Below are positions 3,512 to 27,909 of a DNA stretch of 27,909 nt, one piece after another. The stretch lies in the IMG/VR virus record IMGVR_UViG_3300031227_005202, positions 1-27,909 of that record; one strand, written 5' to 3'. The DNA is from a virus. The position numbers and the translations under genes are program-made. Within the stretch, counting starts at the first letter, position 1; each line of letters begins with the position of its first letter. The notes beneath the pieces are model-generated. The model searched no databases and was not told the DNA's origin. It saw nothing but the letters and a program-made list of their open reading frames with translations.

Positions 3512-3588
3512 GATTTTCTCCAAAAATACTTTCAGGTTATCGAATTAAGTGCGGGTGAGTGAATAAATATACCATTAAATTACCATCA

Positions 3589-7570: not shown

Positions 7571-7572
7571 AA

Positions 7573-8103: not shown

Positions 8104-8113
8104 AGCACCCTCT

Positions 8114-11954: not shown

Positions 11955-12269
11955 ATGTCGGTACCTGAGAAAAAAAGAAACAGAATAGGATTTTGGACTA
12001 ATCCAAAAGTCAAGGAGTTCTTTGACAAACTTTGTCAGCATTCGGAAGTTATTAAAACAACTATTGATTGGAAAAAATTCAGAGCCTTAGATAAGAAAAA
12101 TAGATTTGAAATGTATGACAACGCTTACCTAAGCCTAATGGTTTTGAGACGGAAGCGGGAAAGCGATGGAATTTGTACAAAGTGTGGCAAGTATAAAGCT
12201 ATGGAAGAAAAAACTATCTGCAAGAAATGTTACAAAATTAGCCATGATAGATACTTGGAAAGAGAGTAA
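11955..12269 (+). CDS. Small protein with C-terminal zinc ribbon
   Basis: 104 residues from ATG at 11955, with AAGGA six bases upstream. The first ~70 residues are basic and mostly helical; the C-terminus has CTKC (75-78) and CKKC (90-93), a short CxxC-x11-CxxC zinc knuckle ending ISHDRYLERE. I do not recognise a family. It could bind nucleic acid or be a small regulator. The stop is two bases before the first glycosyltransferase start, so it may be the leading gene of the glycan array. The 58-bp gap upstream (11897-11954) is AT-rich, with -10-like sequences but no clear promoter. Confidence 0.75.
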   Translation: MSVPEKKRNRIGFWTNPKVKEFFDKLCQHSEVIKTTIDWKKFRALDKKNRFEMYDNAYLSLMVLRRKRESDGICTKCGKYKAMEEKTICKKCYKISHDRYLERE

Positions 12270-12271
12270 CT

Positions 12272-13225
12272 ATGAAGATAGCATTTAATTGTAGCGGAGG
12301 TCTAGGGAATAATGGAGGTAGTAGGACTGTAATCCGTTGCCAGCAAACTATAAAAAAGCTTGGACACGACTGCAATATAATTACTAATAATGATAGGTTT
12401 AACTGGTTTACTCATGATACTACTTTGCCAAGGATACCTTCTAACATAGATGCATTAATTGCTACAGATATAAAATCTGTAAAACCAACAGTAAGGTCTA
12501 ATGCCAAAAATAAGTTCTGGTATATTAGAGGACATGAAATTTGGGTTCCAGGTTGGGATGAAGACAAACTTATAAGTTATTACAAGAATAGCCGTGTAAC
12601 AAAGATAACAAATTCTATTTGGATGAAGAAATTTATTGAAAGTTTTGGCGGTAAGTGCCATCTAGTCTACCAAGGTATAGACTTTGATTGGTGGAAAGAT
12701 TATGATCTAAGAAGTGAAAGGAAAATAACAATAGGCTGTTTATGGAGTAAGCTTGCAAGCAAGGGTTGGCCTAGTTTTGAAGTACTACACAATTTACTAG
12801 GGAAGGATAATTATAGGTTTGTAGCATTTGGGAATAAGAAGCTTAAGAAACAGCCGTCTTGGTTAGACAAATATATTGTTAATCCAAATAGAGTAGACTT
12901 GGCAAAGCTTTACTCTGAATGCGATGTGTGGTTTGCTCCTACTGAATTAGAAGGATTGCATAATGTTCCTATGGAAGCTTCCCTTTGCGGAGCTAGGATA
13001 GTTTGTGGTGATCATCCTAGGAATGGTATGGCAGACTATGCTACAGAAGATACAGCTTATATTTATGATGATCACAATATTGCTAAAGCTGCAGAATTAA
13101 TTAATGGAATGATATTTGTTGATAACAAATTAGTTAATATGAATAATACTCTGAGGCATAAGATTGGCAGCAGAGAGAAAAACATGAAAAAATTCATTAA
13201 AATTTTGGAGGACAAAGTTGATTGA
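12272..13225 (+). CDS. GT-B glycosyltransferase, GT4-like
   Basis: 317 residues from ATG at 12272, two bases after the previous stop. The N-terminal Rossmann domain begins MKIAFNCSGGLGNNGGSR with a glycine-rich loop (acceptor side) and GHDCNIIT, typical of GT4. VTKITNSIWMKKFIES followed by VYQGID matches the 'sd....l' and 'v.nGvD' junction between the two domains. The C-terminal domain has ELEGLHNVPMEASLCGARIV (225-244), the E-x7-E donor-binding signature, where E227 and E235 are the likely pair. Predicted soluble; transfers a nucleotide-activated sugar with retention (family knowledge). Donor and acceptor are not predictable. Overlaps the next gene by 8 bp. Confidence 0.88.
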   Translation: MKIAFNCSGGLGNNGGSRTVIRCQQTIKKLGHDCNIITNNDRFNWFTHDTTLPRIPSNIDALIATDIKSVKPTVRSNAKNKFWYIRGHEIWVPGWDEDKLISYYKNSRVTKITNSIWMKKFIESFGGKCHLVYQGIDFDWWKDYDLRSERKITIGCLWSKLASKGWPSFEVLHNLLGKDNYRFVAFGNKKLKKQPSWLDKYIVNPNRVDLAKLYSECDVWFAPTELEGLHNVPMEASLCGARIVCGDHPRNGMADYATEDTAYIYDDHNIAKAAELINGMIFVDNKLVNMNNTLRHKIGSREKNMKKFIKILEDKVD

Positions 13226-13877
13226 CATTACCATTCCTGCAACACTAAGACCAGAACTATTAGCTCAAACATTAACAAGTTTTAAGAAGAATGTTAATTA
13301 TTCAGATGGATTTCAAATAATCCTAAATGTAGACTTTGCACCTAAAGCAAAACTTAAAGAAGCTGCAAATATTGCTGCTAAGTGTTTAGGTATAGCTTGG
13401 GACCACTTTACAGTTAGGAAGTATACTACTAGCGACGAACCAAACTTTGCTAAAGCAGTTAAGAAAATATGGGAGAATAGTGAATCAAGATGGGTGTTCC
13501 ATTTAGAGGATGATTGGCTATTCACTAGAAAGATTGATCTTGATCAAATTCTAGGTTCCATAAGTTCACAAATTAGATACATAAGATTCCCTAAAGAACA
13601 CGCTGCAAAGCTTGATAAGGTAGCCCTACAGCCTTCTTTGTGGAGAGGTGACTTAGTAAGGGAACTTTCAGATGAAATGATTACAGATAAAGATCCTGAG
13701 AAACAACTTAGGAGAGGATCTGTGAATACTTTGATTGACAACCTTCTCCCTATGGCTAGTGAGAGAACAGATTGGCCTGGTGGTCCATTCTGTAAGGATA
13801 ATGGTAGGGATTGGAGAGCTGCTAGAGGTCTGACAAAATGGAATAAGAATAAGGATAGGAGCATTACATGGAGCTGA
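13218..13877 (+). CDS. GT-A-fold glycosyltransferase with EDDW motif (TTG start)
   Basis: 219 residues. The start is TTG at 13218, with a perfect GGAGG six bases upstream; no ATG fits. The N-terminus IDITIPATLRPELLAQTL matches the first strand and helix of GT2-like nucleotide-sugar transferases, and VFHLEDDWLF (94-102) is the expected acidic metal/nucleotide site, in D-D-W form. The C-terminal part contains WPGGPFCKDNGRDWR, where the base or acceptor loop would lie. It is related to the C-terminal half of the fused protein at 16282-17709: both have 'T.R..L...T..SF', the L-E-D-D-W site and a late DxGR-(D/E)W. Overlaps both neighbours (8 bp upstream, 10 bp downstream). Confidence 0.8.
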   Translation: MIDITIPATLRPELLAQTLTSFKKNVNYSDGFQIILNVDFAPKAKLKEAANIAAKCLGIAWDHFTVRKYTTSDEPNFAKAVKKIWENSESRWVFHLEDDWLFTRKIDLDQILGSISSQIRYIRFPKEHAAKLDKVALQPSLWRGDLVRELSDEMITDKDPEKQLRRGSVNTLIDNLLPMASERTDWPGGPFCKDNGRDWRAARGLTKWNKNKDRSITWS

Positions 13878-14812
13878 TAATGCTGTATGGAGGTCTATCT
13901 AAGGAACGTAATGGTAAACAGCAGATGATGATAGATGGCAAGTGTACTTGCGGATACCGAGAGTATGCAAAGATGTTTGGATGTATTATTTATCTATCTA
14001 GACAAGATGTTAAGTGTGATTGGGAATACAGTATGACAGATGCTCAACAGGTAATAGATTTTTGTAAGAAACACCCTGAAGCAATAGTTTGGTCTGTTAA
14101 ACATGATCCTAAGAAGGATGTGATACTGAAAGCTATCCCTAACAAGACTGTTTACTATTCTTGCTGCAATAGGAATATGTATAATAATGTAGCAGATGTT
14201 TCGTTAGTAGATACTCCTGCAAGATTAAGAGGTAATGCTAAAATACACATAAAAGGCAAGGATAAGGATTATTGGTGGGATCAAGGCGATACTGAAAGTA
14301 TATACAAACCTTATGATTATATGCTTGTTGGCAAAAGAGGCGATAAGAATGAAGCCCACTTTATTAATGAACTTACTGATAAAGTCAAGGGGAAAAGAAG
14401 CGTTCTTTGGGTAGGTGGAACTGCTCATAAAAACAGAATTAAAGAAACTCACCATAATGTAGATCTTACTAATTTTGGCAGTATGGAATTCGTTGCACTA
14501 AGTATACCTTTAGGAAAGATTGGTATCCTATTCACAGAGCATCCGGCTGAAGGATTCCCTCAGACATTCTTAGAAATGACTATGTGCGGATTACCTACTA
14601 TCTATAATATCAGCGCTCCTATCAATCAAGCATATTTCTATGAAGGTGTCAATACTTTCACTTGTAAGAAGAAACATTTGATAGCTAAAGCAGAGTATGC
14701 TCTTAAGAATTGGTCTGAGGATAAAGCAGATATGTGTCGTGAATTTGCTGCAAAGAATTATAGCCTACAAGTATCATGGCAGAATATAAAGAATCATCTA
14801 GGAGTTAAATGA
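13868..14812 (+). CDS. GT-B-like glycosyltransferase
   Basis: 314 residues from ATG at 13868, with GGAG six bases upstream; the start lies inside the preceding gene. The C-terminal half has EHPAEGFPQTFLEMTMCGLP (224-243), close to the GT4 'EGFG....EAmA.G.P' donor-binding signature, with E228 and E236 as the expected pair. Upstream, KRSVLWVGGTAHKNR (176-190) resembles the start of the second Rossmann domain. The N-terminal half is less typical: MIDGKCTCGYREYAKMFG and a VDTPARLRG segment suggest a diverged acceptor domain. A divergent, probably cytoplasmic transferase; no membrane segment. Ends with an ATGA overlap into the next gene. Confidence 0.78.
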   Translation: MELIMLYGGLSKERNGKQQMMIDGKCTCGYREYAKMFGCIIYLSRQDVKCDWEYSMTDAQQVIDFCKKHPEAIVWSVKHDPKKDVILKAIPNKTVYYSCCNRNMYNNVADVSLVDTPARLRGNAKIHIKGKDKDYWWDQGDTESIYKPYDYMLVGKRGDKNEAHFINELTDKVKGKRSVLWVGGTAHKNRIKETHHNVDLTNFGSMEFVALSIPLGKIGILFTEHPAEGFPQTFLEMTMCGLPTIYNISAPINQAYFYEGVNTFTCKKKHLIAKAEYALKNWSEDKADMCREFAAKNYSLQVSWQNIKNHLGVK

Positions 14813-15621
14813 TGCATAAGGTAGTTACTTTATGTAGTGCCAACTACTTTCAGTATGCCAAGTATTTTATTTCAACTAGGAATAAAGTCAAGGCTAAGTT
14901 CTTTATGTATGGCCCAGATCTTACTCCTGAACAGATAAAAATATTGGAAGATCATAGCATAGAGTATATCCAAGTCAACCAAGAAGACTTTGATACTAAA
15001 ATGCAAACTATGAAGTTTTCTTGTATGCAAGATCAGATTGATTTAGATAATCCTGATGAACTTATAACTTTTGTAGATGCTGATACATTCTTTGTTAAGG
15101 ATTGGAACCCTTCTGTTTCAAGATGGAAGTTTGACATAGGTATTACTGCTAGGAATGATATGATTGATATAGGCTGTAGTAGAGCCTATGCTAATGGAGG
15201 AGTTATCTTTGCGAAGAACACAACTAGGTCTATTGATATTCTTAAGTTTGCTTATGATACTTGCTTGCTCGGTAAGAGTGATTCAATACCAGAGTATGAT
15301 GAGATATGGAAAACTCTTGAAGATCCAAAACGCCCTGCTCACAAAAGACATTTCCGAACAAACCTTAGATGCTGGACTGATCAAGTATTCTTATCATCAC
15401 TAATAGCTCATAGGTTGAAAACCTCTCCTAATTTAAGATCAAAGGATTCAATATCATTTACTTGTAGTGAATGGATGGTATTTATGTTCAACTCAAGATT
15501 TTATAATAGATTGGAAGATTCTTTAGGTAAGAAGGTTGGGAAGGGAGTATACATTAAACATCTTAAACAAACAGGTAGGACTAGAATATCTGGTAAGAAA
15601 GAAAACCTGTTAGGAGCATAG
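14812..15621 (+). CDS. GT-A-fold glycosyltransferase with DxD motif
   Basis: 269 residues from ATG at 14812; the adjacent ATG at 14809 is also possible, but GGAG is seven bases from 14812 and only four from 14809. ITFVDADTFFV (86-95) contains the DxD metal and nucleotide-sugar site, and YANGGVIFAKN (126-136) the N-G-G-V segment found in GT8-like and related GT-A enzymes before the acceptor site. A conserved-looking late region has TDQVFLSSL, the 'DQ..l' pattern of the same fold. The C-terminus is basic with a KHLKQTGRTR stretch. Soluble; the sugar is unknown. Two bases separate it from the methyltransferase downstream. Confidence 0.8.
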   Translation: MHKVVTLCSANYFQYAKYFISTRNKVKAKFFMYGPDLTPEQIKILEDHSIEYIQVNQEDFDTKMQTMKFSCMQDQIDLDNPDELITFVDADTFFVKDWNPSVSRWKFDIGITARNDMIDIGCSRAYANGGVIFAKNTTRSIDILKFAYDTCLLGKSDSIPEYDEIWKTLEDPKRPAHKRHFRTNLRCWTDQVFLSSLIAHRLKTSPNLRSKDSISFTCSEWMVFMFNSRFYNRLEDSLGKKVGKGVYIKHLKQTGRTRISGKKENLLGA

Positions 15622-15622
15622 T

Positions 15623-16285
15623 ATGGAATATAAAAATAAATGGAACAAATATAAGATAGGGAAAGTACCTTGGATAGAATCAAGGAAGAACCATTTCAGT
15701 AAAGAGCTTTATGTAAACTATATGGCTAACAATTCTGCAAAGACAGTACTTGAGATAGGTGCCGGAGAAGCTCATGAAGCTCAACTTATTACTAGGAAAA
15801 GACCTGATATAGATTATCAGATTATGGATGTATCTGAGACATTTTTAAAGCATGCTAAATTAAAAGGATTTAAAACACATGTTGGAGATATGATTGATAC
15901 AGGATTTGGTACAAATAGTTTTGACATGGTATACTGCTGCAGCGTGCTTGAACATTCTCCAAATATAAAGAAGACCATAAAAGAATTAGCTCGCATATCA
16001 AAAAGTTTCTACTTTACTATGTTTAAATGGAGGATGAAGACAGGAACTTTAAAAGCAAAATATAGAGAGGCCAAAAAATATTATTCTTCAGAATTTAATC
16101 TTACTCAGCTTATTGCTCTTATCAATAAATATGGCATAATACACGACGCAGTTATTTGTACATCTAATGAACATAAAGGTAAGAATCTTATATCTTGGTC
16201 TGAGTATGAACAAAAACTTGTAGCTGATGGAATAGACTTTCATCGGAACGGAAACTATCTATCAATATTAGGAGAATGGTCATGA
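15623..16285 (+). CDS. Class I SAM-dependent methyltransferase
   Basis: 220 residues from ATG at 15623, with AGGAG six bases upstream. The Rossmann fold has motif I VLEIGAGEAHEA (42-52), the acidic end of the second strand at D69 in QIMDVSETF (ribose contact), and motif IV/post-I FDMVYCCSVLEHSP (100-113). The rest is shorter than small-molecule methyltransferases and ends in an aromatic tail. Neighbouring glycosyltransferases suggest it methylates a sugar hydroxyl or a related group of the growing glycan (inference). The last four bases (ATGA) overlap the next start. Confidence 0.85.
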   Translation: MEYKNKWNKYKIGKVPWIESRKNHFSKELYVNYMANNSAKTVLEIGAGEAHEAQLITRKRPDIDYQIMDVSETFLKHAKLKGFKTHVGDMIDTGFGTNSFDMVYCCSVLEHSPNIKKTIKELARISKSFYFTMFKWRMKTGTLKAKYREAKKYYSSEFNLTQLIALINKYGIIHDAVICTSNEHKGKNLISWSEYEQKLVADGIDFHRNGNYLSILGEWS

Positions 16286-17709
16286 GCATATCATTAACTA
16301 AATTGGCAAAAAAACACGGAACTGATAAAGGCCCTATGAAGCATTACTATACCAGATCTTATGACTCTATATTTGCACGTATGAGAAATGATAAGATCAA
16401 GATATTAGAGATAGGCGTTGCTGATGGAGCTTCTATTAAGATGTGGCTTGATTACTTTCCTAATGCTACCATATATGGTCTGGATATTTTAGATCTTAAG
16501 CCAAAAGCATTAGGTATCAAAGACAAAAGATTTAAATTCATTAGAGGTTCTCAAGCTGATGAAGCAGTATTAGATTCAATATTGAAAGAATGTCCAGAAT
16601 TTGATATCATAATAGATGATGGATCTCATAGACCGGAAGATCAGCAATTCACTCTTACTAAAATGTATCCTTCAATTAAAGTAAGAGGATACTATGTCAT
16701 AGAGGATTTAAATTTTCTGTGTGAGTCTGAAACCCCTAAGACTGTAGACCTTATTCAAAAGTTTATGGAGACTGGAGAGTTCTATGATGAATATGTTCAA
16801 GAATATACTACTAAGACTGATTTAGTTTGTAGCGATAAGTTGGCATTTTTCTTAAAGAAGAAAGCCAAGCGTTATGAAGTGCCTCAGTTTGATGCTCCAA
16901 ACTTATCACTACTCCTAGCTTACGATATAGACGTTAAGTACAAAGACTTTGAATCAATTCCTATCCAGGTTACAACTACTGCTACTATGAGGCCAGCCCT
17001 TGTAGAGAGGACCTTTGCATCTTTTGTTAAAAACCTAAAAGGTGTAGATTGGCAAAAGTCTACTTTGTTTATTAATATTGATCCTATACCAGAAGGCGAT
17101 AGAAGAAAAGTTGCCAAGGTGTGTAATAAATTCTTTGGTAATGTTGTAGCAAACTATCCTAGGAAATCTAGTTACTCTGAAGCATTTAATTGGGCTTGGG
17201 ACCAAGCTACTGATGAATACATACTAAATCTTGAGGATGATTGGATATTAGTGCAGCCTATCCATATAGCGGAGCTTCTAGATGTATTTGTGCAAGTACC
17301 AACCTTGTATCAAGTTGTGTTACGGGCTTACGGGTACGTATACCCCTCTTGCGTTACGAGTCCCGCCATACTGCACGAGAGGTTCTATAAATTAATTGCA
17401 GGTAAGCTAGACCCTAACCGTAATCCTGAGAATCAGATACATTGTAGAGGAGATGAGTTTGGCCTTAAGGATATTCCTTTCAAAAGGAAGAAGGTCAATC
17501 CTGGTACAAGAGTTCTAGCATATCCTACAGATGGCAATAGTAGGATTGTTAGAGATATTGGTAGGGAGTGGATGGATTCTACTGATTTATGTAGGCCTGA
17601 AAGAAAAGCAGCTTTTACAACTTGGCAGAAGAAGTCTATATCTGATCAACCTGTGAATCCGGTTTACTCTCCTACAATACTTGCTGGTGAAGAAGGCTGT
17701 GATGTCTGA
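16282..17709 (+). CDS. Fusion: MycE/macrocin-type methyltransferase plus GT-A glycosyltransferase
   Basis: 475 residues from ATG at 16282, seven bases after AGGAG; the ATG at 16276 is too close to that site. Residues 1-205 form a methyltransferase: KKHGTDKGPMKHYYTRSYD (10-28), motif I ILEIGVADGAS (41-51), GLDI (66-69), and FDIIIDDGSHRPEDQ (107-121), a signature of MycE-like sugar O-methyltransferases whose metal site involves the D-D-x-S-H segment. After VIEDL a linker leads to residues 228-475, a GT-A transferase: VTTTATMRPALVERTFASF and LNLEDDWILV (316-325). That half is related to the protein at 13218. The fusion implies that glycosyl transfer and methylation are linked on one acceptor. 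A locally GC-richer stretch lies within its second half. Confidence 0.85.
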   Translation: MSISLTKLAKKHGTDKGPMKHYYTRSYDSIFARMRNDKIKILEIGVADGASIKMWLDYFPNATIYGLDILDLKPKALGIKDKRFKFIRGSQADEAVLDSILKECPEFDIIIDDGSHRPEDQQFTLTKMYPSIKVRGYYVIEDLNFLCESETPKTVDLIQKFMETGEFYDEYVQEYTTKTDLVCSDKLAFFLKKKAKRYEVPQFDAPNLSLLLAYDIDVKYKDFESIPIQVTTTATMRPALVERTFASFVKNLKGVDWQKSTLFINIDPIPEGDRRKVAKVCNKFFGNVVANYPRKSSYSEAFNWAWDQATDEYILNLEDDWILVQPIHIAELLDVFVQVPTLYQVVLRAYGYVYPSCVTSPAILHERFYKLIAGKLDPNRNPENQIHCRGDEFGLKDIPFKRKKVNPGTRVLAYPTDGNSRIVRDIGREWMDSTDLCRPERKAAFTTWQKKSISDQPVNPVYSPTILAGEEGCDV

Positions 17710-18523
17710 TATAGATTTTATTACATTCTCTGCAGCTGGTTCTAATGAGTATATACATTTGCTCAGGAAATCAGCAGAGACGTTCAAGAGTAATGAACAT
17801 AACATACATTATAAAGCCGTTATGTCTGGTGATAAGGCTAACACAATATGTCCTGCTGGTTTTGAAGACTTAGGGACTATCCCTCATGAACATATGTGTT
17901 CATCTTATAATCACTCTATTGCTGTCAACTATGCTTTGACAAAGGTAACATCTGAATATGTTATTCTTATAGATGCAGATATCTGTTTATTATATAAAGG
18001 ATGGGATGATGTAATAGCAACTGAATTAGATACAGGAATAGGTTGCTATGGGTTCAACCGTTGTAGAGAGAAGTTCCCATCCATCTTCATGTTCTGTTTC
18101 AAGAGAGAGTTGCTCAAAAATATAAAGCTTGACTTCCGTCCCAACGTATTCCCTAAGAGAGAGAGTGTTAAGAAATATCACATACGTACAAAAAGAGAAG
18201 CAGATTGGCGGCAAAGCCGAATAGGTGGTAGAGTTAAGTGCGATACTGGATGGAGAATACCAGTAATATTAAAAGGTGATGGGCGTCATATGGAGTGTGT
18301 ATTATCCCGTAGTGAAAAGAAGCAGCTACCTTGGGCTAATGATACACAAAGGTTTCACTGCGTAAAGAAACCAGAGCATATGTGCGAGTGGCATTATAAA
18401 GGAAAGATATTTGGAACTCATAAGCAAGCTAGTAGATCCCATCCTCTAAGTAGCTTCTATGGAAGACACTGGAAGAACAGAATTGATTTATATACTCAGA
18501 AGGAATTTGGGATAACACTATGA
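17702..18523 (+). CDS. GT-A-fold glycosyltransferase with DAD motif (paralogue of 25662 gene)
   Basis: 273 residues from ATG at 17702, just after AAGAAGG and overlapping the previous stop by eight bases; a TTG seven codons upstream is a weaker alternative. YVILIDADICLLYKGWDD (86-103) carries the DxD metal site after a GT2-like N-terminal sheet; the HSIAVNYALTKVTSEY stretch before it fits the 'N.g...a...Y' helix of the family. The C-terminal region (D-T-G-W-x-x-P near 181, R-S-E-x4-LP near 203, EWHYKG at 229-234, HWKNRIDLYT at 256-265) recurs in order in the protein at 25662-26528, so the two are diverged copies. Soluble. Ends with an ATGA overlap. Confidence 0.82.
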   Translation: MSDIDFITFSAAGSNEYIHLLRKSAETFKSNEHNIHYKAVMSGDKANTICPAGFEDLGTIPHEHMCSSYNHSIAVNYALTKVTSEYVILIDADICLLYKGWDDVIATELDTGIGCYGFNRCREKFPSIFMFCFKRELLKNIKLDFRPNVFPKRESVKKYHIRTKREADWRQSRIGGRVKCDTGWRIPVILKGDGRHMECVLSRSEKKQLPWANDTQRFHCVKKPEHMCEWHYKGKIFGTHKQASRSHPLSSFYGRHWKNRIDLYTQKEFGITL

Positions 18524-19167
18524 AGATAATCTTATATACAACTCTTTTTGATGGATATGATAATTTCCCAAAATATCACTTACCATATGGGATAGATTTT
18601 GATATCATAACTGATTTGGATCCAAAGATAAGTAATTATGGTCCTTTTGAATTAACTAAATATTACAAAATGTTTCCTCATTTATTTTTTCAAGATTATG
18701 ATCTTAGTGTTTGGGTGGATGCTAACCAAAAATTAATGCAGCCAGAAAAATTACTTGAACTTTGTAAGCAATTAGAGCAGAGCGATAAGACTGCGATATT
18801 TTTCAAACACGCAAAAAGAAATAATATATATGAAGAATCATTAGTATGTATTGACCAAAAAAGAGCTACATATAAAATATTAGATCATTATGTTAAATAT
18901 AGAGATGATGGCTTTCCTGATAATATTGGCTTAATGGATTGTGGCACAATAATTAGAAAGCATAATGATCCTGATTTGATAGCTTTTGAAGAATTATGGT
19001 GGAGATGTTATATAGCAGGATGTAAAAGAGATCAAGTGTGCTGTCCTTATGCTATGTGGAAAACTAAGTATTCTGAAAATATTATGTTACTGGAAAACAA
19101 AATTAGGAATGGAATGTTCCCTCGCAGTCGTCATAAAATAAGAAAGTTGGTGGAAAATGGAAATTAA
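18520..19167 (+). CDS. DUF616/TOD1-like glycosyltransferase
   Basis: 215 residues from ATG at 18520 (ATGA overlap). Features of the DUF616 (TOD1/MUCI70-like, GT-A-type) family: YTTLFDGYDN at 6-15, KYYKMFPHLFF followed by SVWVDANQKL (63-72, the D-A-N acidic site after 'H..f..yd.SiWvDa'), FFKHAKRNNIYEE (about 93-105), a DDGFPDNIGLMDCGTIIRKH stretch, and a late RDQVCCPYAMWK. Plant members are implicated in cell-wall polysaccharide synthesis; bacterial ones sit in polysaccharide loci. A second, diverged member lies at 21763-22428. This gene and the following one are visibly more AT-rich than the preceding genes. Overlaps the next gene by 11 bp. Confidence 0.8.
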   Translation: MKIILYTTLFDGYDNFPKYHLPYGIDFDIITDLDPKISNYGPFELTKYYKMFPHLFFQDYDLSVWVDANQKLMQPEKLLELCKQLEQSDKTAIFFKHAKRNNIYEESLVCIDQKRATYKILDHYVKYRDDGFPDNIGLMDCGTIIRKHNDPDLIAFEELWWRCYIAGCKRDQVCCPYAMWKTKYSENIMLLENKIRNGMFPRSRHKIRKLVENGN

Positions 19168-20579: not shown

Positions 20580-20582
20580 GTA

Positions 20583-21161: not shown

Positions 21162-21164
21162 AGA

Positions 21165-21776
21165 ATGAAATCAAAATCTACTAGCAAACGTGATAGCAGC
21201 AAGCGTAAAATATTCTTAGATTGTGGAGCTTGGAAAGGTAACTCTACCATTCACTTCATAGAAAATTGGGACTACGCTCATTTGTATAAAATATATGCAT
21301 TTGAGTGCAATCCTGATATGTTAGAAAAGATGCAGAAAAATATCAATAATAAAGGCTATCAAGATAAAGTAAAATTTATACAAAAGGCTCTTTGGGATTT
21401 AGATGGAGTAAGGACACTTAAGGTAGGTGCTGGACCATATAGTGAATCAAGCTCTCTACTTCAGCACAAAAGAGTTCTTAGACATCGTAGGGCTGATGAT
21501 ATGAGGGTAGGGTGTATAAATTTTAGTAAATGGTTGAAGGATAATATAAGAGAAGATGATTATGTAATCTGTAAAATGAATATAGAAGGTGCTGAGTATA
21601 GAGTTCTCAATAAGATGATTGGAGATGGCACTATTGATTTAATAGATGAGCTGCATATGTCTTGGCACTGGAAGAAAGTTAAGTATTCAGAAGAAAAGCA
21701 CAATCACTTAGTGGCTCAAATATTAAAGAGGAAAACCAGTCTTATTACTTGGAGTCTTGAACATGGCCAACCATAA
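21165..21776 (+). CDS. FkbM-family methyltransferase (second copy)
   Basis: 203 residues from ATG at 21165, three bases after the previous stop, with only a weak AAAG site. A basic N-terminal tail (KSKSTSKRDSSKRK) precedes FLDCGAWKGNSTIHF (17-31, SAM loop), IYAFECNPDMLEKM (43-56) and YVICKMNIEGAEYRVL (133-148), the FkbM hallmark with N in place of the usual D in 'D-I-E-G-x-E'. The final part has LHMSWHWKK. It is clearly in the same family as the 19157 gene but shares few residues outside the motifs, so an old duplication or separate acquisition. Likely O-methylates a different sugar. Overlaps the next gene by 14 bp. Confidence 0.85.
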   Translation: MKSKSTSKRDSSKRKIFLDCGAWKGNSTIHFIENWDYAHLYKIYAFECNPDMLEKMQKNINNKGYQDKVKFIQKALWDLDGVRTLKVGAGPYSESSSLLQHKRVLRHRRADDMRVGCINFSKWLKDNIREDDYVICKMNIEGAEYRVLNKMIGDGTIDLIDELHMSWHWKKVKYSEEKHNHLVAQILKRKTSLITWSLEHGQP

Positions 21777-22428
21777 AGTTATATATACAACTATAATAGG
21801 GAATGGATATGATCTACATGAACCAATTGTAGAGAATAAGGATTGGGATCACATATGCTTTGTAAGTAGAAACAAGAGCCTACTACTTAAGAGTAAAAGG
21901 AAGGAAAGCAAGTGGAAGATAATACAGGTCAAAGATCCTTCTCTAACAAGTGAGAAGCTTTCACGTAAAGTTAAGATAATGCAGCATGAGTTTCTACCGG
22001 AACAATATGAGACTTCTATCTTTGTTGATGCTAGGTTTACCATAAAGACTGATCTTAATATATTCTGTGAAGAATATTTGAAGCATTATGGCATAGCAGT
22101 TATGTTACATAATAGGAGGAATTGCGCTTATGAAGAAGGTGACTATGTAGTCAACCAAGGATTAGTTAGCCCTAATAAGATACAAATGCAGTTGAGCCAC
22201 TATAAGGCTGATGGGTTTCCTAAGCGCTTTGGTTTATTTGCTCCTGGTATTATGATCAGGAAATGTGGCAATATTAAGGTTGATAAAATGATGATGGATT
22301 GGTGGGAAGAAATAAAGAAGTATACATATAGAGATCAAGTAAGTTTAGCATATATATTATGGAAGAATAAAGTAGACTTTGGCATTATGCCTTTTCACCA
22401 TACTTATGAAAGGTTTATGAACAGATGA
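21763..22428 (+). CDS. DUF616/TOD1-like glycosyltransferase (second copy)
   Basis: 221 residues from ATG at 21763, with GGAG eight bases upstream; an in-frame TTG at 21757 is too close to it. Family features: VIYTTIIGNGYD (6-17), DHICFVS, SRKVKIMQHEFLP (67-79) followed by TSIFVDARFTI (84-94, the D-A acidic site), AVMLHNRRNCAYEE (112-125), GFPKRFGLFAPGIMIRKC, WWEEIKKYTYRDQVSLAY (180-197). This copy matches the standard DUF616 pattern (K-x-x-H-x-F-L-P, H-x-x-R-x-C-x-Y-E-E, RDQ) better than the 18520 gene, which keeps the frame of these motifs but with changes. Ends with an ATGA overlap into the first sulfotransferase-like gene. Confidence 0.84.
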   Translation: MANHKVIYTTIIGNGYDLHEPIVENKDWDHICFVSRNKSLLLKSKRKESKWKIIQVKDPSLTSEKLSRKVKIMQHEFLPEQYETSIFVDARFTIKTDLNIFCEEYLKHYGIAVMLHNRRNCAYEEGDYVVNQGLVSPNKIQMQLSHYKADGFPKRFGLFAPGIMIRKCGNIKVDKMMMDWWEEIKKYTYRDQVSLAYILWKNKVDFGIMPFHHTYERFMNR

Positions 22429-23057
22429 ACTGCTGGCTAGGATTCATAGGCCCTGTACGTTGTGGGCACACTCTACTAGGAGCTATGCTTGATGCTCATC
22501 CTCATGTCATTATGGCTAATGAAGCAAAAGGCATACTAGGGGAACATCCTTATAAATATAAGGCTGATATATTGAATAAGATACAAGATACCAAATATCA
22601 TTTTAGTATAGGTCATCCTGAATTTGCAGGGAGAGACTTTTACATAGATTGGCAATGGCAAAATAATACAGCATTAGAAGATGCAATTGTTGTTGGCAAT
22701 AAAAGATCTGGACCTGAGACTAGATTTTGGATGGAAAACTTTCCTCGCAATATTGATAAGTTCTCTAAGAAACTAGAACTTCCTATCAAGTTTATACATT
22801 TGATTAGAGATGTGGAAGATAGCGTCAAGAGTATGTGTATTATGAATGGTAAAACAAGTCTTGAAAATTACCATACTTACAAACAAGGTACAGAAAATGC
22901 AGAACATATTAAAGAAAGATATAGCTGTTACTCATTATATATGGAGGATTTTATTAATGATCCTATCAATAGTCTTGTTTATGTTTGCAAATTTATAGGG
23001 ATCTATCCATATAAGGATTGGTTGAGAGATTGTGAAAGCATAGTGGTAAAGAAATGA
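22425..23057 (+). CDS. Sulfotransferase-family protein
   Basis: 210 residues from ATG at 22425 (ATGA overlap). GFIGPVRCGHTLLGAMLDAHP (6-26) matches the PAPS 5'-phosphosulfate-binding loop of the Sulfotransfer_3-type 'g.pRsGTTll...l..hp' (C-G-H replaces S-G-T). FIHLIRDVEDSVKSM (123-137), with R128 and S133, matches the 3'-phosphate-binding site 'h.vRdP.d...S'. A family-typical VVGNKRS segment lies between. The replaced loop Ser could reduce activity, or be compensated by C13. It would transfer sulfate from PAPS to a hydroxyl. Ends with an ATGA overlap into a second sulfotransferase, suggesting joint translation. Confidence 0.75.
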   Translation: MNCWLGFIGPVRCGHTLLGAMLDAHPHVIMANEAKGILGEHPYKYKADILNKIQDTKYHFSIGHPEFAGRDFYIDWQWQNNTALEDAIVVGNKRSGPETRFWMENFPRNIDKFSKKLELPIKFIHLIRDVEDSVKSMCIMNGKTSLENYHTYKQGTENAEHIKERYSCYSLYMEDFINDPINSLVYVCKFIGIYPYKDWLRDCESIVVKK

Positions 23058-23773
23058 ACTATCAAGTAATATCATATCCTAAGTGTGGTAGAACTTGGCT
23101 AAAACTGATAATGACTCACTATGCAGAAATAGCATACAAGTTAAGTATCAACAAACCTAGACATTACATAGAACCTCATAGATTACATGATTATAACAAA
23201 TCATTACCTAACATAAAATTTGCTCATAGTATACGTACAGATATCCAATATGTTGATTCTGTGATATTACTTGTAAGGCATCCTCTTGATGTATTTGTAT
23301 CATCCTACTTTCAGTACAATAAAAGAGAGAATGGAGAAGATCACTTTAAAGGTACTATTTCAGATTATTTAAAGCACACTAATACTATGTCTAATATAAT
23401 AGATTTATATAACACTTGGATTAATGCGTGCAATTATTGCATAACTTACGAAGATATGATGCAAGATTTTACAAATACCATATATAATTTATTCAATCAT
23501 ATTGGGATGATTAACTGTAATTCAAATATTGCAATCAAAAAAGTCAAGAAGATAACTTCATTCCGTAGACTAAGGGAAAAGGAATCAAATAATTTTTATT
23601 GTGATGTTAGGATGAAGCCTTTAGATATATCTGATCCAGAATCATTTAAAGTCAGAAAAGGTAAGATAGGCGGGTACAAAGATTATCTATCTCAAGTGCA
23701 AATAGATTACCTAATGGATATAGTAGCAAATAACCTTAGTGATAAATTTACATCATACAAGAAGGAACTATGA
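23054..23773 (+). CDS. PAPS-dependent sulfotransferase (Sulfotransfer_1-like)
   Basis: 239 residues from ATG at 23054. All three PAPS-contacting segments are visible: SYPKCGRTWLKLI (7-19), the 'YPKSGTTW' 5'-phosphosulfate loop with C11 and R13 instead of S and T; ILLVRHPLDVFVSSYFQ (71-87), the 3'-phosphate site (R75, S83/S84); and FKVRKGKIGGYKD (198-210), the C-terminal 'RKG..GDWK' motif. The usual catalytic His region is plausibly HSIRT at 58-62. It is the most complete of the three sulfotransferase-like proteins. Cytosolic form, no membrane anchor, so the acceptor is in the cytoplasm and PAPS comes from the host. Length is near the family minimum. ATGA overlaps at both ends. Confidence 0.88.
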   Translation: MNYQVISYPKCGRTWLKLIMTHYAEIAYKLSINKPRHYIEPHRLHDYNKSLPNIKFAHSIRTDIQYVDSVILLVRHPLDVFVSSYFQYNKRENGEDHFKGTISDYLKHTNTMSNIIDLYNTWINACNYCITYEDMMQDFTNTIYNLFNHIGMINCNSNIAIKKVKKITSFRRLREKESNNFYCDVRMKPLDISDPESFKVRKGKIGGYKDYLSQVQIDYLMDIVANNLSDKFTSYKKEL

Positions 23774-24231
23774 ACTTTAGCAAAATGTGTAAAAAAGTGA
23801 AGCTGGAAGTTCTTTATGAGCGAGATGTAGAGCCTTCTGACTTGGCTATGATTCATGCTCAACATAATCCAGATAGGTATAAATCATATCTATCATGTAC
23901 AACACCGAATGCCAAGCGCCCTATGGAAATGATAAACTCTCCTCATATAAAGATTGTAAAGGATAAGTTTGCAGGACCATACTACAAGATGCTCAAGCTC
24001 TACGGTAGGAAGCATAAATGGATTGAAGAGAAAATCGCCAAGTTCCGTATCCTCTATGGCGATATACTAATGGAGCATATTCAAGAGCCTCCTATTGTAT
24101 TGATACGGCCATTGGTTCCTATTCCTGGCCATGAAAACCATGAGATATGGGAAGGTCATCATAGGATAGCTTGTTGTATAGCGTTGGGTGTAGAGTGCCC
24201 TATAGAGTTCTGCGATTGGAGCTTAATATAA
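23770..24231 (+). CDS. Small protein with ParB/SerK-like GHHR motif
   Basis: 153 residues from ATG at 23770 (ATGA overlap). The C-terminal part has VLIRPLVPIPG followed by HEIWEGHHRIACCIALG (124-140) and VECPIEFCDW. The 'E/D-G-H-H-R-x3-A-x3-G' pattern is seen in ParB-fold proteins, including the DUF1015/SerK group in which the fold acts as a small-molecule (serine) kinase, rather than in plasmid-partition ParB. The N-terminal two thirds are basic and aromatic with no recognised domain. Location between two sulfotransferases, within a glycan array, makes DNA partition unlikely; a kinase or other small-molecule role is possible (inference). Its stop overlaps the next start by one base. Confidence 0.65.
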   Translation: MNFSKMCKKVKLEVLYERDVEPSDLAMIHAQHNPDRYKSYLSCTTPNAKRPMEMINSPHIKIVKDKFAGPYYKMLKLYGRKHKWIEEKIAKFRILYGDILMEHIQEPPIVLIRPLVPIPGHENHEIWEGHHRIACCIALGVECPIEFCDWSLI

Positions 24232-25016
24232 TGTTTAATTTCAAGAATACTAAGAATGATTATGAGATCAGAATCTTTGCTCTAAGGCGAAGTGGTAGTA
24301 ATGCCATTAGCAATTGGATCATTAATCACTTTGGTAATAATGAAGTATTCTATTTAAGCGCTATACCAAAAGAGTTTCTTCTTAAGCCTGAAATATTCAA
24401 AAGAAAACAGCAAGCTAGTATTGACAATTATGGAGCACCTCAGTTGAAACAAATACATACAGATACAGCTTTTAGAAAATCTAAAAGATGCCTGATGTAT
24501 AGATTTGAAGATTGTAATCTCAATAAGAGTACTAGCGACAGAATTAATTCTCACTATTATGGCAAAAGCAATAAGCTACTAAATATTGTCATATTAAGAG
24601 ATGCATATAATATGACTGCTAGTAGGATGGAGTATAACCCTAAAGTTGACACTTCTGTTATGGTAGGAGAGTTCTATAAGGATCTGCTGAAACAGTATCT
24701 AACAAGGATGATAGATCAGTCTTATGAATTAACTGACACAATATTCATAAGTTTTAATGAATGGTTTATGAATAAAAAATACAGAGAATCATTTTCGGAG
24801 TGGCTAGGTTTAGAGCATACAGATAAAGGTTTGAATCAAATAAATCCATATGGTATTGGGAGTAGTTTTGATGGTAAAAAATTTCAAGGCAAAGCTCAAC
24901 AAATGGATGTCTTTAATAGATGGCAGAAATACAAGAACAATCCTATTTTCAGATCTGTTGTAGATGATCCTGAAATACAGGAAATGAACAATTATATCTT
25001 TGGAGGTATGGAATGA
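24231..25016 (+). CDS. Sulfotransferase-like P-loop protein
   Basis: 261 residues from ATG at 24231 (TAATG overlap with the previous stop, GGAG nine bases upstream); the frame extends 20 codons further without support. EIRIFALRRSGSNAISNWI (12-30) resembles the PAPS 5'-binding loop, with R-R-S-G-S-N; IVILRDAYNMTASRME (119-134) resembles the 3'-phosphate site, with R123 and S131. The 'RsGSN' form is typical of bacterial sulfotransferase-like proteins often annotated in phage and polysaccharide loci. The C-terminus lacks an obvious R-K-G motif. Probably the third sulfotransferase or a related P-loop transferase. Overlaps the next gene. Confidence 0.7.
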   Translation: MFNFKNTKNDYEIRIFALRRSGSNAISNWIINHFGNNEVFYLSAIPKEFLLKPEIFKRKQQASIDNYGAPQLKQIHTDTAFRKSKRCLMYRFEDCNLNKSTSDRINSHYYGKSNKLLNIVILRDAYNMTASRMEYNPKVDTSVMVGEFYKDLLKQYLTRMIDQSYELTDTIFISFNEWFMNKKYRESFSEWLGLEHTDKGLNQINPYGIGSSFDGKKFQGKAQQMDVFNRWQKYKNNPIFRSVVDDPEIQEMNNYIFGGME

Positions 25017-25660
25017 TGAGTAAAAAATGGATCAAGCATTTGGACAATGAAGTTTGTCTTGGATTATTACACAAGGAAGGCGATCTATACATATCAAATG
25101 AATTCCCTGATAGGGAGTATGATTCTCAACATTATAGTGATGTATGGGAGAAACGGTATGAAGATGTTCTGATAAAACTTATCCAAGATAATATTGGTCC
25201 TGTTGATAGTGCATTAGATGTTGGAGCTGGATTTGGTGGTATTGCATATAAATTCATAAAAGCATTTGAGCCAAAAGAATATTGCGCTTATGAATTCTCA
25301 AGTGCTCACCATCATATTACAAAGCCTAAAGATTCCTCAACTAATCTTATAGTGAATGGAGAATCATTTAAGGATCTCCCTACTTCTGTAATATCAAAAT
25401 ATGATATTGTAATTTCTACAGAAACACTTGAACATATTAATTGGGATATAGAGTTTATCAAATCAATACCTACATCTAAATGGTTGGCAATTACTATCCC
25501 TACCTTTCTAGGGTGTGGTCATATAAGAAGTTACCCATTAATGGAAAGTATAGAACATAGATATGGTGAATATTTAGATATAGTAGCATCTGAATGGGTT
25601 GGGAATAGGAGAAGGGTAAATTACCCTAAATGGTGGGCTTTCATAGCTAGGAGGAAATAG
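25013..25660 (+). CDS. Class I SAM-dependent methyltransferase
   Basis: 215 residues from ATG at 25013, with GGAGG six bases upstream (the next codon is also ATG). ALDVGAGFGGIAYKF (67-81) is motif I; CAYEFSSAHHHI (91-102) follows strand 2, and YDIVISTETLEHINWD (130-145) is the motif IV region. A later WLAITIPTFLGCGHIR and SIEHRYGEYLDI segment is as in Methyltransf_23-type enzymes. N-terminal ~60 residues (HYSDVWEKRYEDVL) are typical of sugar-modifying methyltransferases but not diagnostic. Overlaps the previous gene by four bases and is one base from the next. More AT-rich than the genes before 18500, like its 3' neighbour. Confidence 0.85.
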   Translation: MMSKKWIKHLDNEVCLGLLHKEGDLYISNEFPDREYDSQHYSDVWEKRYEDVLIKLIQDNIGPVDSALDVGAGFGGIAYKFIKAFEPKEYCAYEFSSAHHHITKPKDSSTNLIVNGESFKDLPTSVISKYDIVISTETLEHINWDIEFIKSIPTSKWLAITIPTFLGCGHIRSYPLMESIEHRYGEYLDIVASEWVGNRRRVNYPKWWAFIARRK

Positions 25661-25661
25661 T

Positions 25662-26528
25662 ATGTGTGAACCACTTATAGATTTGGTGACGTATGCTGAT
25701 GCTAATACTATGGAGTATGTTGATTTCTTATATCAAATTAGTAGCAAGTATTTAAAAAATCCTGAAAGTGTAAATTGGTTGTGTGCAACATTTGATGATA
25801 GTGTACCTTCTAAACCTTGGACCAAAATTTGCCAATATGAGATTCCTGAGATAGAAGATTCTCCTTCAATGAAGCATGCTTCACTTCTACATAAATCTCT
25901 TAAACACTTAAAAAGTAAGTATGTAATTATAGTTGATGCTGATGTAGTATTAACTTACCCTAATTGGGGCCAAGAAATTATAAGTATATTAACTGAATAT
26001 GATTTATTTGGTATAGATTTTCCTCCAGATAGAACAAGGTATAGAGATTTCCCATCAACTAGACTATTCTGTTACAATTCAGAAACTTTAAAGGAAAAAG
26101 GAGCAGAGTTAGATTTTACAGCCAAAAAAGTAATAAATAAGGGTAGAGATGTAACTGGATATGGACGCATCAGTAATCTACAAGATTCATATATTTATAA
26201 CAAGCTGCTTAGATCTAAATTTGCATATGATATAGGGTGGAAATTACCTGCCATAGCTTACCACAAAAATTTAACAAGTTATACATTACGCTGCGTACCT
26301 AGATCTGAAGAGCACTTACCTTATGAAACTCCTGAACAAAAAGAACAATTCCTAGCTATGTACAATAGAGAGACTCATAAAAGTACTGCTGCTGATATGG
26401 CTGAATGGCATCACAAAGGAGTATTGTTTGCTTCTCATAAACACAAGGGTAGGCTGAAAGGTATTAATGATCCTAAACATAATTTATGGAAAAATAGAAT
26501 AATGCTATATACAAAAGGACTAGTATAA
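25662..26528 (+). CDS. GT-A-fold glycosyltransferase with DAD motif (paralogue of 17702 gene)
   Basis: 288 residues from ATG at 25662, with AGGAGG seven bases upstream. YVIIVDADVVLTYPNWG (87-103) carries the DxD site at 92-94. The C-terminal region has D-I-G-W-K-L-P near 190, P-R-S-E-E-H-L-P near 213-220, EWHHKGVLFASHK (248-260) and LWKNRIMLYT (275-284). The same elements occur in order in the 17702 protein, showing common ancestry, while the N-terminal 80 residues and the DAD surroundings differ. The two copies likely use different acceptors or donors. Soluble, no membrane segment. The stop overlaps the next start by one base. Confidence 0.82.
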   Translation: MCEPLIDLVTYADANTMEYVDFLYQISSKYLKNPESVNWLCATFDDSVPSKPWTKICQYEIPEIEDSPSMKHASLLHKSLKHLKSKYVIIVDADVVLTYPNWGQEIISILTEYDLFGIDFPPDRTRYRDFPSTRLFCYNSETLKEKGAELDFTAKKVINKGRDVTGYGRISNLQDSYIYNKLLRSKFAYDIGWKLPAIAYHKNLTSYTLRCVPRSEEHLPYETPEQKEQFLAMYNRETHKSTAADMAEWHHKGVLFASHKHKGRLKGINDPKHNLWKNRIMLYTKGLV

Positions 26529-27184
26529 TGGGGTTCAAAGCTTTAATTGATAAGTACAAAGGCAAGAGAGACTTCCTAATCTATGGAGCTGCTAATTCAG
26601 TACGGTTATATGATAAGGAGATCAAGGAATGGATGAAGAAGGCTAATCCAATCACTATAGGGATTAACCGTATGACACATGTGCACGTACCAGATTATCA
26701 CTTATGGGTCAACAACAAGAGGCTGAAGAGATTCCATAAATGTATCCAACCTAAATCAACATTGTTACTAGGTAGTCACTTATTCAGAGAGACTTTAGGA
26801 TGTGTTTCTGATAAGGATAATGATAGGGCAATTGTTCCATATACTGATGACTTCCATAATAAGAATGAGCCTATAGAATACAAGGATGGAGTCATCAAAG
26901 GATTCTTCCGTATAGGCGGTAACTTGGCAATAATGATAGCTCATCTTATGGGAGCTAGGAACATCTATGTAATAGGTGCAGATGGATACTCTAAGCCTCA
27001 AGAAGGCACTCAGCATTGTTATGGAGAAGGATTTACTGATAGCGATGATATGGAATGGGAAAAGAAGAAAGACCATTTCATTTATAGAGTATTAAGGAAT
27101 ATAGATGAAGCTGGCATAAAGTTCAAAATTATAACTCCAACTATCTACTCAAAATTTTATGATGGGAGCATTCTATGTCTCTAA
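26528..27184 (+). CDS. DUF115/MAF-like glycosyltransferase-type protein
   Basis: 218 residues from ATG at 26528 (TAATG overlap). DFLIYGAANSVRLYDKEI (15-32) resembles the 'i.G.GpSl' nucleotide-binding start of DUF115/MAF-flag10 proteins, ITIGINRM (42-49) the 'i..n.a...l' strand, PDYHLWVNNKRL (55-66) the 'PDy...d' segment, and GGNLAIMIAHLMGARNIYVIGADGY (split here: GNLAIMIAHLMG at 131-142, then ARNIYVIGADGY) the helix-strand typical of the family. Such proteins include Maf flagellin glycosyltransferases, and the same fold includes MptE-type pyrophosphokinases. In a glycan array a transferase role is likelier. Overlaps the aldolase gene by ten bases. Confidence 0.75.
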   Translation: MGFKALIDKYKGKRDFLIYGAANSVRLYDKEIKEWMKKANPITIGINRMTHVHVPDYHLWVNNKRLKRFHKCIQPKSTLLLGSHLFRETLGCVSDKDNDRAIVPYTDDFHNKNEPIEYKDGVIKGFFRIGGNLAIMIAHLMGARNIYVIGADGYSKPQEGTQHCYGEGFTDSDDMEWEKKKDHFIYRVLRNIDEAGIKFKIITPTIYSKFYDGSILCL

Positions 27185-27870
27185 GGTTATTGTGGCAACA
27201 AATTCCTTCCCCTCTAGTATCTGAGATCTTATCATACAGTAGCTTTGATGGCGTAGTGTTAGATGCAGAGCACGGGTGCTTTAATAATGAAACTTTGTAT
27301 AGCTGTATACAAGTTATTAGTAGGCGTGATAGGAGAGCCTTTGTCAGAGTTGCTACGGTTGATGAAGAAAAAGTCAGGATGTGTTTGGATGCAGGAGCAA
27401 CTGGTATTATTTTTGCCAATATAGAATCAGTTGATCAAATTACTAAAATACATAGCATCTGTAATTATCCATCTAGAGGGCTAGGTTTGGTAAGAGAGAA
27501 TATGTGGGGCCATAAGGCATTAGGTATAGCTGCTCCTATTATCATTATACAAATAGAAAGCCGTAAGGCTATTGATCAGTTACCATACATATCTAAAAGT
27601 AATTGGAACAAATTAGTAGACTACTATATGATAGGCCCATATGATCTATCTAAGTCATATGGTGTTGCAGGAGACTTTGAACATAGAGCTGTGAAAGCTG
27701 CATTAACAATATTTGAAGAATGTATACCAGATGAAAAGAAAGGCTATCACCTAGTAAAGGATTGGGATGAGTACTGTATCAGATGTAGGAAGTATGGTAT
27801 GGTTGCTATGGGTATGGATACTACTATGTTATTTGAACAGATAAAGCTTATGGAGAATATGATATCATGA
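27175..27870 (+). CDS. HpaI/HpcH-family aldolase (class II)
   Basis: 231 residues from ATG at 27175, six bases after GGGAG. VVLDAEHG (27-34, H33 as base), FVRVA (56-60, R58), AGATGIIFANIES (73-85), IIQIESRKAI (124-133, E128 as a metal ligand) and YMIGPYDLSKSYG (151-163, D157 as the second ligand) follow the HpaI/GarL pattern. Family enzymes cleave or form 2-keto-3-deoxy acids with pyruvate and an aldehyde. Somewhat shorter than HpaI (about 250-265). In this array it may make or break a keto-acid sugar precursor (inference), and pairs with the next gene, which starts in an ATGA overlap. Confidence 0.85.
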   Translation: MSLRLLWQQIPSPLVSEILSYSSFDGVVLDAEHGCFNNETLYSCIQVISRRDRRAFVRVATVDEEKVRMCLDAGATGIIFANIESVDQITKIHSICNYPSRGLGLVRENMWGHKALGIAAPIIIIQIESRKAIDQLPYISKSNWNKLVDYYMIGPYDLSKSYGVAGDFEHRAVKAALTIFEECIPDEKKGYHLVKDWDEYCIRCRKYGMVAMGMDTTMLFEQIKLMENMIS

Positions 27871-27909
27871 AGACAATTATTACAACTAGTCCATTTGGCC
27901 ATACTAACA
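27867..27909 (+). CDS. Start of a further gene, cut by window edge (possibly 2-hydroxyacid dehydrogenase)
   Basis: ATG at 27867 overlaps the aldolase stop (ATGA), and 14 codons are visible: MKTIITTSPFGHTN. This resembles the opening of phosphoglycerate-dehydrogenase-like proteins ('kvlittspFg'), which would fit a keto-acid partner for the aldolase. Fourteen residues are too few to be sure; the ribosome site (GGAG, 11 bases) is weak. Confidence 0.45.
   Translation, partial: MKTIITTSPFGHTN

Follow-up and report, generated by a model that had tools for sequence, protein, structure and literature searches.

The DNA studied here, from an uncultured phage, carries a run of 21 tightly coupled, co-directional ORFs (12272-27870, + strand, by ORF calling) that may well constitute a cytosolic pathway for a methylated and sulfated glycan, most likely built on one or more phage structural proteins before assembly. 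Within the window, that is, the whole stretch of 27,909 nucleotides analysed, adjacent array ORFs share as many as 14 nt or leave gaps of no more than 3 nt between them, and no + strand terminator was found inside the array. An earlier note had described a coupled array of glycosyl-, methyl- and sulfotransferases starting at 12272 on a phage genome. ORF calls and family searches bear this out, and the phage origin is confirmed by the - strand genes, which encode capsid, portal and head proteins. Its counts of six methyltransferase domains (15623, 16276 N-half, 19157, 20583, 21165 and 25013) and three sulfotransferase-like proteins (22425, 23054 and 24231) were correct, while of some eleven glycosyltransferase domains announced, ten are found and the eleventh is weak. 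Only the ORFs at 23770 (no Pfam match) and 27175 (an HpcH/HpaI aldolase) fall outside these classes. The array had been drawn to the window end; it does reach 27870, but the window edge is not its end, for it continues in contig G001. GC and AT skew both reverse near 11 kb, the meeting point of the - strand structural genes and the + strand array. A chimera of phage and bacterial DNA, which would have undone the earlier description, is ruled out because two other IMG/VR contigs match the window across the array junction, G001 with 99.996% identity over 24,760 bp and G002 with 100% identity over 16,059 bp.

Pfam searches on each protein support a glycosyltransferase, methyltransferase or sulfotransferase family for most array genes, all on the + strand. 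The first, g1 (12272-13225), is a GT4-type glycosyltransferase (PF13692, 5.6e-8, over the cut-off) that is 71%, 49% and 51% identical to its orthologs in the related phages G003, G004 and L078, respectively. It is followed by the GT2-type g2 (13218-13877), a paralog of the glycosyltransferase half of g6 (BLASTP, 1e-12) whose G003 ortholog matches PF00535 (E=0.0014), by the GT4/GT1-type g3 (13868-14812; PF00534, 2e-5, slightly below cut-off) and by g4 (14809-15621), which resembles GT8 or nucleotide-diphospho-sugar transferases through a weak match (PF03407, E=0.017) and is 69% and 44% identical to its G003 and G004 orthologs. The SAM methyltransferase g5 (15623-16285; PF08241, 3e-12) precedes g6 (16276-17709), a fusion of a methyltransferase (N-half) and a GT2 domain (C-half) with matches to phrog_21658 (2e-21) and PF00535 (0.001), the counterpart of which in G004 is two separate genes. 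Next come the GT2-type g7 (17702-18523; PF00535, 0.0095; paralog of g19, 2e-24), the TOD1/MUCI70 glycosyltransferase g8 (18520-19167; PF04765, 2e-8), the FkbM methyltransferase g9 (19157-19855; PF05050, 1.4e-6) and g10 (19845-20579), called GT2-like only from a motif in its sequence and a TIGR04440 match (E=0.044). Two methyltransferases, g11 (20583-21161; Methyltransf_24, PF13578, 2e-13) and g12 (21165-21776; FkbM, PF05050, 9e-12), lead to a second TOD1/MUCI70 glycosyltransferase, g13 (21763-22428; PF04765, 8e-16). Beyond the sulfotransferase block lie the SAM methyltransferase g18 (25013-25660; PF08242, 1e-5), the GT2-type g19 (25662-26528; PF13712, 0.002), the candidate glycosyltransferase g20 (26528-27184) and the aldolase g21 (27175-27870).

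The sulfotransferase block comprises g14 (22425-23057; assigned by PF13469 only, 1e-9), g15 (23054-23773; PF00685, 2e-15) and g17 (24231-25016), with g16 (23770-24231), a conserved core gene lacking a Pfam match (62% identity in G003, 37% in G004), between the last two. In g15, the motifs YPKxGxxW, R(8)S and RKGxxG align with solved sulfotransferases as the canonical PAPS motifs, so that both the 5' PSB loop and the 3' phosphate-binding R/S motif of a PAPS-dependent enzyme can be read from its sequence; no match to g15 was found among 50,697 phage records. The g17 protein has no Pfam match, and its AF2 model matches PAPS sulfotransferases, best of all in the PDB human TPST2 (Foldseek, E=7e-6), placing it among the PAPS-dependent enzymes by fold and motif. 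The g20 protein is MptE/Maf-like (PF01973 superfamily): its PF01973 matches are sub-threshold (15 bits against a cut-off of 34.6), yet they recur in all orthologs. Its predicted model, of low confidence (pLDDT 58.7), is nearest to SteA and MptE/HPPK, not Maf; with such matches, an assignment as a GT42 sialyltransferase is unsupported. PDB sequence searches with g17 and g20 profiles gave nothing useful.

The earlier note left out a precursor pathway, of which the aldolase lies in the window and the dehydrogenase and CMP transferase beyond its edge. The array continues through 27871-27909 (+) and for about 4.1 kb more in G001, where it is on the reverse strand and encodes a 2-hydroxyacid dehydrogenase (8863-9822), a KdsB-like CMP-sugar synthetase (8120-8863) and three more glycosyltransferases, of types GT4 (7137-8123), GT9 (6310-7140) and GT2 (5636-6313). 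This brings the total to about 26 back-to-back sugar-handling genes. The g21 protein is an HpcH/HpaI class II pyruvate aldolase (PF03328, 2e-17; 63.6 bits against a gathering score of 25) that aligns with solved 2-keto-3-deoxy-acid aldolases and matches the TIGR02311, GarL and RhmA models, but below every equivalog cut-off. The KdsB-like protein exceeds the cut-off of NF003952 (200.9 bits against 193), has a conserved QGDEP motif and scores below TIGR00466 and other KdsB models; all the PDB matches listed for it are KdsB. By Pfam, no NeuB-family synthase was found in the window array proteins or in the scanned G001 and G004 proteins. Together, aldolase, dehydrogenase and KdsB-like protein look like a phage-encoded CMP-ulosonate pathway. 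In G004, the dehydrogenase is present, the aldolase is absent and a PseF-like cytidylyltransferase replaces the KdsB-like one, showing that neither the sugar nor the coupling of aldolase and dehydrogenase is fixed. A similar module occurs in a Woesearchaeota MAG (WJJM01000013, locus L062), where adjacent aldolase (45%) and dehydrogenase (51%) genes share a run with a cytidylyltransferase, a sulfotransferase and a methyltransferase; this locus differs in belonging to a cellular genome, in carrying NDP-sugar epimerase/dehydratase-like genes and in having glycosyltransferases not closely related to those of the phage. An archaeal host was not concluded from this match, since the aldolase occurs in only 1 of 279 genomes of the phylum and may reflect horizontal transfer. 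Nor was a host established from the IMG sample numbering, although it resembles that of an Antarctic lake MAG cited in PMC8620254.

Comparison across related phages, as the earlier note had proposed, showed synteny of the array among three diverged phages: gene order is common to the window, G003 and G004, and the array start is seen in a fourth phage, L078. A core of about a dozen genes is kept in order among phages whose terminases are 66-89% identical. Purifying selection acts on the array genes shared with G003; all compared ORFs are intact, with pN/pS values of 0.23-0.50. Orthologs of g9, g10, g14, g15 and g18 are absent from both G003 and G004. The relatives G007, G013 and G011, more distant by backbone, have no array; they carry at its locus a methyltransferase gene followed by a homolog of the g17 sulfotransferase, and a two-domain GT4-GT2 gene is kept beside the capsid gene where that spot is covered (G007 and G013). 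At this distance, then, only GT4-GT2 remains together with a single methyltransferase and a single sulfotransferase at the array locus, and the array appears to have grown out of such a simpler modification system, its peripheral genes varying from lineage to lineage. When viral collections were scanned with g1, with g20 and with the CMP transferase, the array was found in this phage group only; the additional viral contigs recovered with g6 share no more of that gene than the methyltransferase half.

The GT4-GT2 gene also escaped the earlier note. Its 5' part, truncated by the window edge, occupies positions 2-1273 (-; PF00534, E=1e-20), and the full gene in L040 (6632-9052) encodes 806 aa (PF00534, 2e-25), the GT2-like C-terminal half being assigned by motif only. 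In G003, G004, G007 and G013, the capsid gene is adjoined by orthologs of 780-815 aa, and thus the enzyme is linked to a structural gene in every relative that covers the spot. In the window, the major capsid protein, a candidate acceptor, is encoded at 2504-3523 (-; PF05065, 7e-15; 96% identity in G003) and the terminase large subunit, our backbone marker, at 8114-10045 (-; a weak phrog_9 match, and tblastn to annotated terminases). The array-side run begins with a 5'-3' exonuclease gene (10973-11896, +; PF02739, 6e-16), and a small zinc-ribbon-like protein (11955-12269, +) is conserved upstream of the array, with orthologs in G003, G004, G007, G013 and G011. A serine-rich repeat protein lies at the G003 contig end and is absent from the array-less G007 and G013. 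Considered as an acceptor, it amounts to a lead from that one genome; the sequence of the window's own phage does not cover the region.

The pathway could operate as follows. Aldolase, 2-hydroxyacid dehydrogenase and KdsB-like cytidylyltransferase would, judging from their families and recurrence, provide a CMP-activated 3-deoxy-ulosonic (KDO-like) acid. Host NDP-sugars would supply chain extension by soluble GT2, GT4, TOD1-like and GT9-like transferases, among which the MptE/Maf-like g20 is a candidate ulosonate transferase. The six methyltransferase domains and the three PAPS sulfotransferases, whose families are documented above, would decorate the glycan at the expense of host SAM and PAPS. 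Initiation on a virion protein would most likely fall to the GT4-GT2 enzyme encoded beside the capsid gene, which is kept throughout the phage group, and lineage-specific peripheral genes would vary the particle surface. Family matches, conserved order, purifying selection and recurrence of the archaeal module make a decorated glycan well supported; that there is a single one, as the earlier note had it, does not follow, gene content differing between lineages.

Alternatively, the genes might act on the surface polysaccharide of the infected host, remodelling its LPS core or O-antigen so as to exclude superinfecting phages or alter adsorption; we regard this as possible though doubtful. LPS synthesis, too, typically involves KDO-like (here KdsB-like) and GT9 (heptosyltransferase-type) genes, LPS core can be built by cytosolic peripheral glycosyltransferases, and the related archaeal module belongs to a glycan cluster of a cellular genome; these observations speak against a virion target. 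In addition, pelagimyophage glycosyltransferase clusters have been given the host-surface interpretation (PMC7029224), and a role in making and modifying the cell wall was assigned to genes of cyanophage S-SCSM1 (PMC9602691). However, among the array proteins tested in three phages none reaches transmembrane-level hydropathy, so that no membrane flippase, polymerase or transferase of the Gtr or Wzx-Wzy export types was found there, and the GT4-GT2 enzyme stays fixed beside the capsid gene in all relatives that cover the spot. It is unlikely that the array is a set of polysaccharide genes captured into a hypervariable region, making several unrelated products and no single pathway: the five genes without orthologs in G003 and G004 and the paralog pairs g7/g19, g8/g13 and g2/g6 would fit, but the syntenic core, the intact genes under purifying selection and the aldolase-dehydrogenase pair found elsewhere would not. 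Glycosylation of hypermodified DNA bases against restriction, as in T4, is very improbable and was set aside: phages are known to glycosylate DNA and the GT4-GT2 protein matches T4 beta-glucosyltransferase marginally (E=0.004-0.007), but PF00303 (thymidylate synthase/dCMP hydroxymethylase family) was not found in G001, G003, G004, G007 or G013, several of them fragments, the 50 other G003 proteins scanned (all but the largest and smallest) include no base-hypermodification family and have ThyX and an adenine methylase of EcoRI type as their sole nucleotide or base enzymes, and base glucosylation needs neither sulfation nor CMP-ulosonate genes.

Glycosylation of a virion protein in the cytosol has a parallel in flagellin, which Maf enzymes glycosylate in the cytoplasm (PMC4065374), transferring CMP-nonulosonate onto Ser/Thr; some of them accept CMP-KDO (PMC11339370). 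The phage likewise has a putative CMP-ulosonate synthetase near a candidate PF01973-like protein, in a system that would be wholly cytosolic, but differs in having an aldolase where no NeuB-type synthase was found and in the below-cut-off PF01973 match of g20. On a smaller scale, Mycobacterium prophages such as McProf carry, a few genes away from those for terminase and portal, a methyltransferase 30-35% identical to the g6 N-half next to a glycosyltransferase; these are one or two genes, with no sulfotransferase, and a CMP-sugar pathway was not seen. The earlier view that such an array is unusual for a phage holds only in part, since arrays of similar scale exist in the cultured cyanophages S-SCSM1 and S-SCSM2R, and pelagimyophages have glycosyltransferase-rich regions (PMC7029224). 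Both cyanophages show long co-directional glycosyltransferase runs with methyltransferases and sugar-precursor enzymes, and S-SCSM2R has KdsA/KdsB and an annotated sulfotransferase about 8 kb away. They are, however, phages with genomes of 229-244 kb, with GDP-sugar precursor genes, KdsA-type synthesis and 2OG oxygenases, without a three-sulfotransferase block, and no HpaI-type aldolase is annotated in the stretches read. The pelagimyophage clusters also lie in hypervariable regions, but GT8 is commonest there, the genes are partly scattered by twos and threes, the region includes tail fibre genes, and sulfotransferases are not mentioned (PMC7029224). Thus, multi-glycosyltransferase viruses are already known, and the proposed combination of a methylated, sulfated chain with a self-made acidic sugar looks new.

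More tentatively, we propose that phage-made CMP-ulosonic acid (through the aldolase route) and the three sulfotransferases serve to give the particle a coat of sulfated, methylated glycan, with outer decorations that lineages exchange. Such a system would be the phage parallel to flagellin glycosylation and would have developed from a minimal set of capsid-linked glycosyltransferase, methyltransferase and sulfotransferase. If true, this would be a bacterial virus with a largely self-contained glycan pathway, one that covers sulfation and supplies the acidic sugar precursor itself. The phage group would then offer a comparative series, from minimal to elaborated, for the evolution of virion glycan coats, and its differences in gene content would make the role of the decorations in immunity, adsorption and stability testable. 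The module further suggests that an activated sugar is reached by an uncharacterised route of aldolase, dehydrogenase and cytidylyltransferase, which phages share with one archaeal genome at the least.

The window is a 27,909-base contig from an uncultured virus. Its capsid, portal, head and terminase genes lie on the minus strand in the left part, and the right part carries a single co-directional run on the plus strand. From 12272 to 27870, 21 ORFs (g1 to g21, in order) each overlap or abut their neighbour within a few bases, the tight packing described in the earlier note. Its count of about eleven glycosyltransferase (GT) domains, six methyltransferase domains and three sulfotransferase-like proteins also holds, since scans against Pfam, PHROGs and NCBIfam find ten GT domains plus a weak eleventh, six and three, respectively. 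Three of the calls, g2 (GT2-type), g4 (GT8-like) and g10 (GT2-like), are weak single assignments with little or no Pfam support of their own; that of g2 is made secure by paralogy and by its ortholog, and that of g10 rests on a motif only. The sulfotransferase g17 has no Pfam match; in a Foldseek comparison with the PDB, its AlphaFold model (five sequences, mean pLDDT 65) matched PAPS sulfotransferases at E values down to 7e-6, tyrosylprotein sulfotransferases being the nearest.

An assembly artefact or a chimera of phage and bacterial DNA is ruled out by two matches across the phage/array boundary: G001 (IMGVR 3300005935_000063) is 99.996% identical to the window over 24,760 bp, and G002 (3300023256_000412) is 100% identical over 16,059 bp. 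In G003, a 105-kb relative, the array sits at the same location with ~70% nucleotide identity; G004 also has it there, its shared genes being roughly 31-57% identical at the protein level. A fourth lineage, L078, has the first array genes, a methyltransferase preceding g1. All array ORFs tested against G003 are intact, with pN/pS of 0.23-0.50, compared with 0.04-0.24 for capsid, portal, protease, terminase and exonuclease genes, ratios that are rough because synonymous sites are near saturation.

The array outruns the window. G001 adds 2-hydroxyacid dehydrogenase, KdsB-like cytidylyltransferase, GT4, GT9-like (assigned from its G003 ortholog) and GT2 genes, giving ~19.8 kb and 26 genes by coordinate arithmetic. 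The final ORF of the window, g21 (27175-27870), encodes an HpcH/HpaI aldolase. From pyruvate and an aldehyde, aldolases of this class form 3-deoxy-2-keto acids, compounds of the kind that KdsB-type enzymes activate with CTP; the aldolase, dehydrogenase and KdsB-like genes together thus suggest a CMP-ulosonate route. One relative of the aldolase turned up among 84,980 species genomes, scanned with short exact patterns that would miss more distant ones. It lies in a Woesearchaeota MAG, where it adjoins a dehydrogenase 51% identical to that of the phage, in a glycan locus with cytidylyltransferase, sulfotransferase and methyltransferase genes. G004 has the dehydrogenase, lacks the aldolase, and substitutes a PseF-like cytidylyltransferase, an aldo/keto reductase and two radical-SAM enzymes. 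The genes for the latter lie inside the G004 array (G004:26489-27805 and 28780-29850; one B12-binding, one SPASM) and suggest more unusual sugar or peptide chemistry. Just past the array, G001 encodes a small acyl-carrier-like protein (G001:4492-4734, L013; PF00550 above cut-off) that is 50% identical in G003; a gene for a C92 papain-like amidase lies nearby (G001:5083-5634).

No segment of transmembrane-strength hydropathy was found in the array proteins tested from the window, G001, G003 and G004, and the pathway therefore looks cytosolic, without export machinery. A close functional model for cytosolic protein glycosylation is that of flagellin, to which Maf enzymes attach nonulosonic acids in the cytoplasm (PMC4065374); some accept CMP-KDO (PMC11339370). 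The candidate GT g20 (26528-27184) matches the Maf/MptE family below threshold only, so that the comparison is one of analogy, not membership. A GT4-GT2 gene of ~800 aa lies beside the capsid gene in every relative covering the spot, array or not. (A NUMOD-type homing endonuclease ORF, 1543-2406 on the minus strand, separates the two in the window and is absent there in G003.) By analogy with Maf, the glycan would be added in the cytosol to a virion protein, an acceptor that this model and the capsid-linked gene lead us to favour, with about an even chance of being right. One candidate acceptor is a serine-rich SASES-type repeat protein of at least 445 aa in the structural module of G003 (C1:3-1340; L015:3-1340), whose richest 60-residue stretch is 63% Ser/Thr. 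It lies at a contig end and is possibly behind the assembly break there.

The main rival is that the array modifies the host surface, because the KdsB-like and GT9 genes are of LPS type and GT clusters of pelagimyophages were interpreted in this way by their authors (PMC7029224). Modification of DNA is unlikely, since the thymidylate synthase/hydroxymethylase family is absent in the five relatives searched and likewise among 50 other G003 proteins. G003 encodes an EcoRI-type adenine methylase outside the array (PF13651, E=1e-128).

The earlier note held the array to be unusual. Long phage GT arrays are already known from cyanophages S-SCSM1 and S-SCSM2R (PMC9602691); what is new here is three sulfotransferases within a single array, the aldolase-type precursor module and a minimal-to-elaborated series. 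Searched against 50,697 phage records, the KdsB-like protein gave six matches, and g20 and the sulfotransferase g15 gave none. The backbone is shared by three relatives without the array (G007, G013 and G011), whose terminases are 52-55% identical to those of array-bearing phages. In these, all that comes after the exonuclease and zinc-ribbon genes is a methyltransferase and a g17 sulfotransferase homolog, with a patatin- or lipase-like gene in two of the three (patatin-like, G007:21348-22295; class 3 lipase, G011:2075-2845, each in the slot after the sulfotransferase). Across seven lineages, several of them fragments, the simplest reading would be a small ancestral modification set, later elaborated within one clade.
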